Assembly (NCBI RefSeq): GCF_019891175.1
Contig: NZ_CP072600.1
Location: forward strand, 372,001-436,000
Direction: 5' to 3'
DNA: 64,000 nucleotides
DNA from: Leptothermofonsia sichuanensis E412
GTDB lineage: Bacteria; Cyanobacteriota; Cyanobacteriia; Leptolyngbyales; Leptolyngbyaceae
Below are positions 52,516 to 57,557 of the stretch, in pieces. The first letter of the stretch is position 1; every line of letters begins with the position of its first letter. The notes beneath the pieces were generated by a model that made no database searches, had not been told where the DNA came from, and was given only the letters and a program-made list of their open reading frames with translations. The translations under genes and the position numbers were made by a program.

Positions 52516-52687
52516 ACACGATATTTCCTGACAGCTATTTCCTGACAGACCTGACTGATTGACTTTGACCGACTGTCAAAGTACTTTAAGACTTCCTCAA
52601 GAAACATTACGAACTGCCCCTGTCTGACTATGCTCATAAGTGGCGTACCCATTCAGTCAGACTTTGAAGCTGAGCAAAGGAAAACCG

Positions 52688-54142
52688 ATGGTCGAAATTT
52701 TATCAAACACAGTGGCATTGTCGCGGATGCAGTTTGCACTAACTGCCATTTTTCATATGCTCTGGCCGGTTTTGACGACTGGAATGGCAATTTATCTGGT
52801 CATCGTGGAAGGGATGTGGCTGAGGACGCGCAACCCAGATTATTATCACCATGCCCGTTTCTGGTCAAAGCTTTACATCCTCAATTTTGGCATTGGGGTG
52901 GCGTCAGGACTGCCGATGGAATTTCAGTTTGGCACCAACTGGGCACCTTTTTCGGAAGCAGTCGGTGATTTCTTTGGCAGCATTCTCGGCTTTGAAGGCG
53001 CAATGGCGTTCATGCTGGAAGCCGGATTTCTGGGCATCATGCTGTTTGGCTGGGGGCGGGTGCATCCGGTGATTCACTATCTGGCAACCATCATGGTAGC
53101 CTTTGGTGCCAATCTCTCTACCTTCTGGATTTTAGTTGCCAATTCCTGGCTGCAATCTCCAGCAGGGGGGGAAATGGTGGATGGTAAGTTTGTCGTCAGT
53201 GACTACTTCCAGGCAATCCTGAACCCCTTTATGGTCAAAAGCGTGGCGCATATGTTTTTAGCAACGCTGGAAACGTCTCTATTTGTGATTGGGGGGATTA
53301 GTGCCTGGTATATTCTGAACCAGCGTCATCAGGCGTTCTTTGCGCGATCGCTCAAAATTGTCTTAGCCGCTGCGATCGCCGTGGCACCGCTGCAAATCTA
53401 CGTCGGTCATTTGAGTGCTGAACAGGTTTATCACTATCAACCCACCAAATTAGCTGCGATGGAAGCGCAGTGGGAAACCAGTCCTGCCGGACAACCTGCC
53501 GATTGGAGTTTGCTGGCATGGCCCGACGAGTCCGGCGCAAAAAATCGCTGGGAACTGACTATTCCCAATGCCCTCGGCTACATTCTGGAGTTCAAGCCGA
53601 CGCTTTCTGAACCCGTTTTGGGATTGAAAGAATGGAAACCGGGCGATCGCCCCCGGATGGTGGGATTGATCTACTATTCTTTCCGGATCATGAGCGGGAT
53701 TGGGTTTTTCCTGGCCGGGTTGATGCTATGGAGTGGGTTACAGTGGCGCCTGGGTAAACTTTCCCCTGAAAAAATTGCCCAGCAGAAATGGCTACTGCGA
53801 GGCTGGGTGTTTGCGGCGCCTCTGGGCTACATTGCCGTTGAAGCAGGCTGGATTGTGCGCTGCGTCGGTCGTCAGCCCTGGACACTGTATGGACAAATTC
53901 GCACGGCTGATGCTGCGTCCCCCCTTCCAGCCATGAACGTCCTCACCTCACTCACTGCATTCGCGGTGATCTATTCCATTCTGTTTGTCTCGACGCTGTA
54001 CTTTGGCAGTCGGATCATCCGCAAAGGTCCCAATCTTGAACTGCCTGTGCCTGAACTGGATAACCAGCCTGCAATAGATACCACTCCCGCCAAATTTATC
54101 CCTGATCAACGCCCGGTCGAAGCCCAAAGCGTTGCTGAATAG
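52688..54142 (+). CDS. cydA: Cytochrome bd-type quinol oxidase subunit I
   Basis: ATG 52688 (MVEILSNTVALSRMQF) with AAGGA upstream gives 484 residues; 52640 is a longer frame. Conserved parts are the heme b595/d-region histidine in IFHMLWPV, EGAMAFMLEAGFLG, the histidine in KSVAHMFLATLE and quinol-loop QPTKLAAMEAQWE. The quinol loop is short, as in cyanide-insensitive oxidases. In the GRQPW motif the residue aligned with the E. coli heme b595 ligand Glu445 is Cys (GWIVRCVGRQPW). The stop codon lies within a family-a repeat. It is followed by cydB and encodes the quinol-oxidising subunit of a thylakoid or plasma-membrane terminal oxidase. Confidence 0.93.
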   Translation: MVEILSNTVALSRMQFALTAIFHMLWPVLTTGMAIYLVIVEGMWLRTRNPDYYHHARFWSKLYILNFGIGVASGLPMEFQFGTNWAPFSEAVGDFFGSILGFEGAMAFMLEAGFLGIMLFGWGRVHPVIHYLATIMVAFGANLSTFWILVANSWLQSPAGGEMVDGKFVVSDYFQAILNPFMVKSVAHMFLATLETSLFVIGGISAWYILNQRHQAFFARSLKIVLAAAIAVAPLQIYVGHLSAEQVYHYQPTKLAAMEAQWETSPAGQPADWSLLAWPDESGAKNRWELTIPNALGYILEFKPTLSEPVLGLKEWKPGDRPRMVGLIYYSFRIMSGIGFFLAGLMLWSGLQWRLGKLSPEKIAQQKWLLRGWVFAAPLGYIAVEAGWIVRCVGRQPWTLYGQIRTADAASPLPAMNVLTSLTAFAVIYSILFVSTLYFGSRIIRKGPNLELPVPELDNQPAIDTTPAKFIPDQRPVEAQSVAE

Positions 54143-54205
54143 CCCTATGAATTGAAAGTCTTCAATTTATACAACCTTGAATTCATATCCAGCATCAGCA
54201 ACGCC
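54128..54205. repeat. Repeat family a, overlapping the cydA stop
   Basis: AGCGTTGCTGAATAGCCC to CATCAGCAACGCC with GAATTGAAAGTC / CTTGAATTCATATCC inner parts. The TAG of cydA (54140-54142) and its last residues are encoded by the repeat. Confidence 0.78.
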
Positions 54206-55241: not shown

Positions 55242-55317
55242 AAACAGCGGGTTCAGCCATTAGAAAATCTGGCGCTGGTAAATTGAACAGTTCCCTGACT
55301 ACCATTATTATTTTCGC

Positions 55318-56103
55318 ATGGTTAATTCCAGGTTGGGCAACCCTATCTACAATGAAGCGCTTGAGTTGCTGCGAACAGGGCAAAACATGGCTTCAACCAT
55401 CATTACCGAAGCCCGCTTGAGTGGGTTGCCCGATCCGGTGCAACGGTATCTTCGATATACCCAGATTGTGGGTCAAGAAGTGATTCGCACAGTACGACTG
55501 AAACAGAAAGGCTGGTTCAGGATGGGGGTTGATCAAAACTGGCAACCCCTGGTAGCAGAGCAATACTACACTACGGATCCCCCGGCATTCCTGTGGTACG
55601 GTACCATTCGTCCTTTTCCCTTGCTGTCCATCACAGGCAAGGATCAATTCTCCAATGGTCATGGCCGCTTACAGATCAAGGCATTGTCCCTGATTATGCT
55701 GGCAGATGTGCGTGGACCAGAAGTCGATCAGGGGGAATTGCTGCGCTACCTGGGCGAAATTGCCTGGTTTCCGACCGCGTGGTTGTCTGATGCGCTGCAA
55801 TGGCACGCGATCGATGGCCAGTCAGCTCAGGTAACCATGCAACTCCAGGACATTGCTGTTTCAGCAACACTGTCCTTTAATCAACAGGATCAGTTAACTG
55901 ATGTGAGGGCAGAGCGTTACTGGAAGGAGAACGGGCAATCCGTTTTGAAACCCTGGTCTGGTCAGTTCAGAGAGTATCACCAGGTAAATGGGCTAATGAT
56001 TCCAACCCAGGCGGAAGTCACCTGGCATTTAGAATCGGGAGACTTTCCCTATTTTCGCGGCGAAATTACAGAAATCGATTACAACCCGTTGTTACCGTAC
56101 TGA
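55318..56103 (+). CDS. DUF6544-type protein
   Basis: A 261-residue protein with LSGLPDPVQRYLRYTQIVG near the start, LSLIMLADVRGPEVDQGELLRYLGE in the middle and a strand-rich C terminus. This matches the pattern of the DUF6544 family; no catalytic function is known to me. No signal peptide; ATG 55387 is an alternative start. It is 7 bp upstream of the next gene on the same strand. Confidence 0.7.
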   Translation: MVNSRLGNPIYNEALELLRTGQNMASTIITEARLSGLPDPVQRYLRYTQIVGQEVIRTVRLKQKGWFRMGVDQNWQPLVAEQYYTTDPPAFLWYGTIRPFPLLSITGKDQFSNGHGRLQIKALSLIMLADVRGPEVDQGELLRYLGEIAWFPTAWLSDALQWHAIDGQSAQVTMQLQDIAVSATLSFNQQDQLTDVRAERYWKENGQSVLKPWSGQFREYHQVNGLMIPTQAEVTWHLESGDFPYFRGEITEIDYNPLLPY

Positions 56104-56110
56104 ACCCCAT

Positions 56111-56734
56111 ATGAAGCAGCCTTTCCTGACGATTATTCTTCCCATTCTGCTGTTGGTACAGCCTGGATTTCCGGGCACCCTGCTGGCTCAAGCAGTGTCA
56201 ACCAAGATCACATTTGATATTTCCAAACTATCGCCTGCCGGTCTGGTAGGCCCCCCAGATGGTTTGCGATCGCTCAGTTATGAGTTTTGTATTCCGGCTG
56301 GTCAGGCATATCTGGAAGAGGTTCAGGCGATTGATCCGGCTGTGCAATTTTACCCCCACTCCAGAGGCCGGATTGGCTGTCAACGGTCGCAAATTCTTTG
56401 CATTGGCAACACGCACAATCCCCAATGGCAAGGGATCTTGTTCGCGATCGCGGAGCTTCCCTATGTTGAGCGGATTGATGAATTTTTTGGAGAAAAAACT
56501 GCGGCGTTGGTGAAAAGCAATATGAATCGAAACATAGTTTCGAGCATATATAGCAGTCCTAAATCAGTTGTGAGAGTAAGAAGCTTTGTGAGAAAGGATT
56601 TCTCAGGAATCCTTTCTCACAATCCAGATAGAATCGCTATAGCACCTTTTTCATATCCAGAATCAGCAACCCCTGAACTGCGATCGGTCATTATGGCTGG
56701 CGTTGCCGATTTACGGAAGTTTCCAAATCTGTAA
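56111..56734 (+). CDS. Exported hypothetical protein with an in-frame repeat insertion
   Basis: A 207-residue protein with a signal peptide ending at LLAQA. Residues about 30-140 contain two cysteines (YEFCIPAG, IGCQRSQILCIGN) and end at YVERIDEFFGE, and I recall the pattern as a common cyanobacterial exported protein. From about residue 137 the sequence is encoded by a family-a repeat that itself contains a second palindromic repeat (56553-56643), so the C-terminal ~70 residues are probably repeat-derived. Function unknown. Confidence 0.65.
   Translation: MKQPFLTIILPILLLVQPGFPGTLLAQAVSTKITFDISKLSPAGLVGPPDGLRSLSYEFCIPAGQAYLEEVQAIDPAVQFYPHSRGRIGCQRSQILCIGNTHNPQWQGILFAIAELPYVERIDEFFGEKTAALVKSNMNRNIVSSIYSSPKSVVRVRSFVRKDFSGILSHNPDRIAIAPFSYPESATPELRSVIMAGVADLRKFPNL
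56515..56673. repeat. Family-a repeat split by a second palindromic element
   Basis: The left part (AGCAATATGAATCGAAACATAG) and right part (TTTTTCATATCCAGAATCAGCAACCCC) belong to family a. Between them, TATATAGCAGTCC to GAATCGCTATAG contains the strong hairpin GAAAGGATTTC / GGAATCCTTTCTC near 56590-56622. The frame stays open throughout. Confidence 0.65.
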
Positions 56735-56813
56735 CCAGTGCCATCATGCATCGAATTCAATGACAAAGTAGAGATATTCAAGTGACAGGCTCAATTTTGT
56801 GAGGAGGATTTTG

Positions 56814-57557
56814 ATGAGAGATTCAATGGTTTTAATGAAAGGGAAATCTGGCTGGAGGCGGTTGCGCACGCTGGCAGTCAGTACAGGGATACTGAGTTTG
56901 ATGGTTGCTCATCCAGTTCTGGCTCAGGAGCGGTTGATGAACACTTTAACGGTCACTGGACGGGGAACTGAGATGGTGACGACAACCCTGGCTCAAGTAC
57001 GCCTGGGCGTTGAAGCCAGAGGGTCAACAGCCAACGAAGTGCAACAAGAGGTTGCCCGCCGCTCAAACTCAGTAGTGGCTCTACTCAAGTCCCGCAATGT
57101 TGAACGGCTGGAAACCACAGGTATCAACCTCAGTCCTACCTACCGCTATGACAATGGAAACCAGACCCTCACCGGATATGCGGGCAGTAATATTGTCAGC
57201 TTTCGGGTTGCAACTGAGAAGGCCGGAACCCTGCTGGATGAGGCAGTAGCCGCAGGAGCCAGTCGAATTGACGGAGTCAGTTTTGTGGCGTCCGATGCGG
57301 CGATCGCCGCTGCTCAAAAGAATGCTCTCCGGGCAGCGACTCAGGATGCCCAGGCACAGGCAGACGTTGTTCTGAGTGCCCTGGGTCTGACTCGCAAAGA
57401 AGTCGTTAATATTCAGGTTAATCAGGCTTTTGCTCCACCCCCTCGTCCTGTTTTCTCTGCCCAGGCGGCTGATATGGCCGTTGCCAAAGCTCCCACTCCA
57501 GTGATCGGCGGCGACCAGCAAGTAGAAGCTTCTGTCACCCTGCAAATTCGCTATTAG
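56814..57557 (+). CDS. SIMPL-domain (DUF541) exported protein
   Basis: ATG 56814 follows GTGAGGAGG, whose own GTG (56799) is probably only the ribosome site; 247 residues result. A signal peptide ends at HPVLAQ. The SIMPL domain shows VTGRGTEMV near the start, STANEVQQEVARRSN, and the repeated INLSPTYRYDNG-type strands, ending SVTLQIRY. SIMPL proteins form periplasmic oligomeric channels or binding platforms; the exact role is unknown. Confidence 0.85.
   Translation: MRDSMVLMKGKSGWRRLRTLAVSTGILSLMVAHPVLAQERLMNTLTVTGRGTEMVTTTLAQVRLGVEARGSTANEVQQEVARRSNSVVALLKSRNVERLETTGINLSPTYRYDNGNQTLTGYAGSNIVSFRVATEKAGTLLDEAVAAGASRIDGVSFVASDAAIAAAQKNALRAATQDAQAQADVVLSALGLTRKEVVNIQVNQAFAPPPRPVFSAQAADMAVAKAPTPVIGGDQQVEASVTLQIRY

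Follow-up and report, generated by a model that had tools for sequence, protein, structure and literature searches.

In Rickettsia, palindromic elements that carry an open frame of their own are found fused in frame within protein genes (as described in the accessible portions of PMC10969869 and PMC2229807), and the MITE-like repeats ERIC, YPAL, RU-3 and Correia (107-bp form) likewise have an open frame fused in frame to other frames; one YPAL repeat contributes to the signal peptide of a putative exported protein, and an RU-3 repeat lies at a C-terminal end (PMC2229807, accessible portion). The locus described here, a gene at positions 56111-56734 of a 64,000-nt window (the whole stretch of DNA analysed, bases 372,001-436,000 of genome G000), resembles the Rickettsia elements in mode, without being assigned to their family, in that short palindromic mobile repeats are read in frame in a host protein; unlike them, it apparently involved insertion on a stop codon, two unrelated nested repeats and a separate loss of the stop. 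With ERIC, YPAL, RU-3 and Correia it shares the in-frame fusion of MITE-like repeats to reading frames, and it differs from them in sequence, in host, and in having a nested pair and a duplication-held stop, neither of which appears in the accessible part of PMC2229807. The in-frame fusion of MITEs with genes is known already from the Rickettsia palindromic elements, ERIC and Correia, and by analogy the present locus would work as these do.

Among cyanobacteria, 132 of the 147 MITEs of Anabaena sp. 90 lie between genes, and the 15 within genes have been read as making pseudogenes (PMC3542288, accessible portion). The genome studied here also has many short inverted-repeat elements; whereas the in-gene insertions of Anabaena sp. 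90 were interpreted as pseudogene-forming, the frame here reads through. Further cyanobacterial MITEs are Nezha and those of Anabaena PCC 7120. A nested MITE pair read through a duplication-held stop was not found in the literature as far as it was accessible, and Wolk et al. 2010 (Anabaena PCC 7120) may hold similar cases. Less usual here is the legibility of the locus, with a stop preserved in a target duplication and the first element's own stop removed by the second, so that it may be read as a fossil of a protein gaining a new end, in which the old stop is still visible and the later steps can be placed.

Anatomy of the nested repeats

The reading frame at 56111-56734 (plus strand) comprises 207 codons, with a predicted product of 207 residues, and starts 7 bp after the end of a DUF6544 gene, with a SIMPL-domain gene downstream (Table 1). 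An initial annotation had described nested repeats in this frame, and the nesting was borne out: an outer MITE, made up of two parts totalling 80 bp and spanning 56503-56673 together with its insert, is interrupted by an inner one. The coordinates first assigned to the repeats, 56515-56673, are right at their right end, but the outer element begins farther left, at 56503. The outer MITE has no gene of its own and its ends form imperfect inverted repeats (GGCGTTGCTGA versus GGGGTTGCTGA). Because 19 further full copies of its subfamily (subfamily a) occur in the genome, all lacking the inner element, the inner element must have split the outer one; when the two flanks of the inner element were searched separately, there were 13 other places at which their matches overlapped, each time by two bases. 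Of these 19 copies, 15 carry a target duplication, 6-12 bp long (frequently 8 or 9) and in some cases mismatched; L117 and L120 have none, and those of L113 and L126 are doubtful. Two related copies of the outer type elsewhere in the window had 43 and 41 genome matches, in overlapping sets with 40 candidates scored per search.

Table 1 Features of the extended gene and loci of its homologues
Feature	Position	Strand	Description
Ancestral coding part, codons 1-128	56111..56494	+	Homologues align here; ends in alignment-invariant Glu
Left copy of 8-bp target duplication, AAAACTGC	56495..56502	+	First three bases at old stop position, now AAA (Lys129)
Outer MITE, left 48 bp	56503..56550	+	93.8% identity to uninterrupted genomic copy; termini GGCGTTG...CAACCCC
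Inner MITE with TA duplication	56549..56641	+	89-bp body 56551-56639, TA either side; 40 other copies fetched
Inner-MITE palindrome	56586..56622	+	18-nt arms, 94% complementary; 17-bp RNA hairpin in fold; within coding sequence
Outer MITE, right 32 bp	56642..56673	+	Aligned stretch 56638-56673 94.4% identical to uninterrupted copy
Right copy of 8-bp target duplication, TGAACTGC	56674..56681	+	Contains TGA, likely ancestral stop, now out of frame
Former downstream DNA as last residues and stop TAA (56732-56734)	56682..56734	+	Without counterpart in homologues
Homologue loci of 56111-56494	L039-L050, L128-L135, L011, L014, L015, L019, L020

The inner MITE belongs to an abundant family. A genome search with 56515-56660 gave 146 first-look candidates, of which 40, the window locus included, were scored; the 39 others, plus one from a further search, make up the 40 other copies considered here, and their 93-bp TA-to-TA units are 88-96% identical to that in the window. 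The best of them has an E value of 1.6e-37 over the whole genome, which rules out chance as the source of the repeats, and the 16-bp left end of the element has 81 genome matches at up to one mismatch, as against none for a control pattern. TA was present on the left of 37, on the right of 38 and on both sides of 35 of the 40 copies, and the TA site stands once in outer copies that lack the inner element. Only one of the six frames of the window inner MITE is free of stops, and this is the frame that the gene uses; the same frame is open in 34 of the 40 other copies. The whole 240 nt folds with a z score of -2.93, a stability reached by 2 of 200 shuffles. We rejected the inner palindrome as a terminator, no terminator-like hit falling at the palindrome itself; elsewhere in 55250-57000 there were four such hits versus 1.9 expected, including a minus-strand hit at 56527-56543.

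Duplication of TA recalls ISY100, a Tc1/mariner/IS630 element that prefers TA targets (accessible portions of PMC2170065 and PMC6400869). In one of the eight IS630-type pairs of this genome compared, one end begins TATAGC as the inner MITE does; the agreement with this end stops after these six bases. No parent element for either MITE was found among the eight IS630-type pairs and 45 transposase loci, and in the latter outer-type ends turned up only at L251, which has a single one, and at L262, where two lie about 80 bp from each other, with no transposase gene bounded by them. The IS630-type transposase domain DDE_3 (PF13358) matches the genome at 150 places, the majority of them free of internal stops. 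Two side observations concern the nesting itself. In a partial outer copy (L112, G000:C1:50500-51700), different DNA beside an IS630-type transposase gene takes over from the same internal TA, as if the internal TA of the outer MITE were a repeated target. The reverse nesting also occurs, with an outer MITE inside an inner-MITE copy at L118:526-605, flanked by the duplication AGAAAGGA.

Homologue ends and the old stop codon

Homologues of the core were detected in 11 of the 96 other genomes searched (nine further genomes matched through the repeat part alone) and, in a second search, in 8 of 41 other genomes, all among the same 11, to which 12 named loci were added. Their sources are cyanobacteria, the named ones including Leptolyngbya, Nodosilinea and Phormidium, together with MAGs labelled Thiohalocapsa, Saprospiraceae and Chloroflexota; the named homologues make a filamentous cyanobacterium the probable host of the gene. 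The 25 rows examined represent 23 distinct homologues, as L011/L129 and L015/L133 are the same loci twice. Glu128 is invariant in all 24 aligned sequences, and in 22 of the 23 homologues the stop follows directly after the residue aligned with it, a C-terminal Glu thus standing immediately before the stop in these 22; the sole exception, L047 from the Chloroflexota MAG, runs on for three residues. For residues 129-207 there is a counterpart in none of the 23, and the comparison of orthologues that the initial annotation had proposed accordingly returned no homologue sharing this C terminus without the repeats. In the same-genus genome G001 no homologue of the core was detectable, hence no close relative with an empty site was seen.

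These ends bear on whether the longer C terminus is ancestral, the repeats having been inserted in frame into a pre-existing tail. The last 19 codons, which are not repeat-derived and stay open to 56731, would fit such a history, but no homologue extends past codon 128, bar the three residues in L047, and joining the flanks through the right-hand duplication copy gives a stop at codon 129. We therefore rejected an ancestral long C terminus on the homologue ends and consider it extremely improbable.

The same junction locates the original stop, the search for which had also been suggested at the outset: with codon 128 joined to the right-hand copy, TGA follows directly as codon 129, the homologous stop position, whereas a junction with the left-hand copy would yield a product of 157 residues. 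The duplication is imperfect (AAAACTGC and TGAACTGC are equal at six of eight positions), and with its copies differing at two positions it is not certain whether the ancestral stop codon was TGA or TAA. The TGA retained in the right-hand copy makes it probable that the outer MITE met an intact stop, and because the stop codon lay within the target duplication, the outer insertion would have been silent at first. With the present flanks, the outer MITE alone would yield 146 residues, the frame ending 18 residues on at a TAG inside it; a stop occupies the place of this TAG in 16 of the 20 subfamily-a copies outside the locus. The inner insertion sits at that TAG, which is thereby removed.

We consider it very probable that the 79-residue tail was gained stepwise, by an outer MITE on the stop codon, loss of the stop and insertion of the inner MITE. 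As read from the anatomy of the locus, the 80-bp element would have inserted at the gene's 3′ end with duplication of 8 bp that included the stop, leaving the protein unchanged at first. The left-hand copy of the stop would then have become AAA, either from TGA by two changes or, if the ancestral codon was TAA, by a single change, the right-hand copy having also changed once. The inner MITE would have inserted exactly at the TAG of the outer one, removing it and supplying its single stop-free frame, and this step and the stop loss may have come in either order. On leaving the inner MITE, reading would now continue through the outer one in a different frame, pass the right-hand copy of the old stop out of frame and end in what was once downstream DNA; given expression of the gene, a protein with the tail should be produced. 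The view that repeats have remodelled a coding sequence, put forward in the initial annotation, is upheld overall, with the amendments that the outer insertion did not do so by itself, whereas stop loss and the inner insertion did, and that translation of the repeats is a prediction.

The lost stop could also be an artefact, the codon being intact in the organism and altered by a sequencing or assembly error in the six-A run at 56493-56498. The changed codon does lie within this homopolymer run, and the analysis covered one assembly of the species. However, changing the run by -2, -1, +1 or +2 gives products of 146, 133, 147 or 134 residues, never 128, and the genome is a single contig of 6,426,061 bases with 100% completeness. 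A length error of up to two A thus cannot restore the homologous stop, so that a substitution error would be required; homopolymer-length error was rejected as the cause, and an error of any kind in this run seems to us very unlikely.

The predicted tail and the core protein

In the stepwise history the tail corresponds to residues 129-207, 79 of the 207 residues (38%). The repeats supply 171 nt of the gene, 57 codons' worth of 207 (27.5%), and the remainder of the tail comes from 8 nt of the left duplication copy and from 58 nt that comprise the right copy and what used to be downstream DNA; the initial annotation had put the repeat-derived share at about a third of the protein. Of 20,000 mononucleotide shuffles of the tail DNA, 87 kept a frame of 79 codons open, which makes such a frame unusual but is no test of selection because the repeats have fixed sequences. 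Tryptic peptides predicted from the translation of the tail are NIVSSIYSSPK, DFSGILSHNPDR and IAIAPFSYPESATPELR.

The core appears to be part of a small exported protein: by direct reading its N terminus is signal-peptide-like, and several homologues have a lipobox-like cysteine. Pfam and NCBIfam gave no family for the protein, with only single weak matches among the 24 aligned members (best E 0.0086), so the core (window 56111-56494) and its homologues constitute a small protein family without an entry in either. A PDB sequence search with the core alignment gave no match at E up to 1. A PDB fold search gave nothing at E 0.001 or better and 980 matches when E values up to 10 were allowed; among the 50 listed, several were ACT domains or ferredoxin-like folds. 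In 55250-57000, promoter-like hits were as frequent as in shuffles (2 versus 2.2).

Whether the tail forms part of a working protein is a separate matter, as the extended gene may be decaying or silent, with the tail existing only on paper or being removed after translation. Several observations are compatible with this: the AlphaFold model predicts the tail with low confidence (block means of pLDDT 50-77 for residues 131-207 and 94-98 for residues 31-120), the tail deprives the invariant Glu of its C-terminal position, and the in-gene MITEs of Anabaena sp. 90 were taken to produce pseudogenes (PMC3542288, accessible portion). Against it, the 128-codon core is open and matches the 24-row alignment at all 16 of its invariant positions, and the short distance from the upstream neighbour is operon-like. 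Decay, silence or removal of the tail seems to us possible, though not the likelier state of affairs.

Outer-type MITEs at gene 3′ ends

The locus points to further genes in this genome (cydA, clpB and others) whose C terminus mobile repeats define. CydA (52640-54142) ends EAQ-SVAE*, an ending found in none of the 19 CydA of other genomes, 12 of which end in EAQQ* or ETQQ* (the other seven differ, with ANQ, TQN, ARQ and a longer one among them). An outer-type MITE lies at the end of cydA (54129-54205), flanked by AAGCCCAA and AAGCATAA (equal at six of eight positions), and beyond it the right flank continues CAGTAG, which after EAQ would read Q-stop; judged from these sequences, the element has evidently replaced the last residue and stop of CydA. 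ClpB (L200) similarly ends LTT-GAAE*, an ending absent from the tails of the 14 relatives' ClpB (LTTQ* in six, LTT plus one other residue in three, otherwise in five). Its element (L200 701-781, G000:C1:4444246-4444326) has an 11-bp duplication, TTTTGACCACA, on either side, and the right flank continues CAATAA, again Q-stop, by which the end of ClpB has evidently been rewritten in the same way by an outer-type MITE. In cydA, clpB and the gene at 56111-56734, this superfamily has struck the 3′ end either at the stop itself or no more than one or two codons away.

We assessed how often outer-type copies lie near gene ends across the genome. When genes were called with a home-made program, 16 of 84 copies fell at -12 to +10 of a called stop, compared with 2.0% of all positions, and seven of 84 were counted inside genes, although this caller misses genes, including that at 56111-56734, and places the cydA copy inside a gene. 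With equal flanks and a range of -20 to +15, 17 of 79 outer-type and 0 of 40 inner copies lay at gene ends (p 0.0006), or 15 of 79 and 0 of 40 under a stricter threshold (p 0.002), the five window copies being left out of the 79. An ORF of at least 130 codons ended within 20 bp (-20 to +20) of 22 of 79 outer-type versus 3 of 40 inner copies (Fisher p 0.009). Under the same ORF rule, hits were scored at 295 of 3160 random points within the outer loci and at 94 of 1600 within the inner ones, but these points cover gene interiors, where insertions would be purged, and the flanks of inner copies have fewer called genes. A Pfam family was present in 16 of the 20 ORFs tested, out of 24 ending near outer-type copies. 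The ranges for these 3′-end counts were set or widened after a first look, and the gene calls are rough; the counts are suggestive of a preference of outer-type MITEs for gene 3′ ends, for which targeting, purging and neighbourhood would look alike.

A bolder interpretation, which we offer as a speculation with the odds against it, is that the superfamily prefers 3′ ends and that its termini, with a stop in two of three frames in the form GGCGYTGCTGAATAG, act as a portable C terminus. Under this rather doubtful reading, an element landing within a few codons of a stop would swap the last residue for a short tail (Q to SVAE in CydA, Q to GAAE in ClpB) and occasionally, as in the gene at 56111-56734, would pave the way for a long one, and, if it were true, protein ends in this genome would have been rewritten as a class.

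As separate observations, outer-type copy L223 holds the stop of an ORF without a Pfam family, and copies L179, L214 and L225 hold the stops of ORFs that are, by Pfam, a histidine kinase, a WD40 protein and a neutral invertase.
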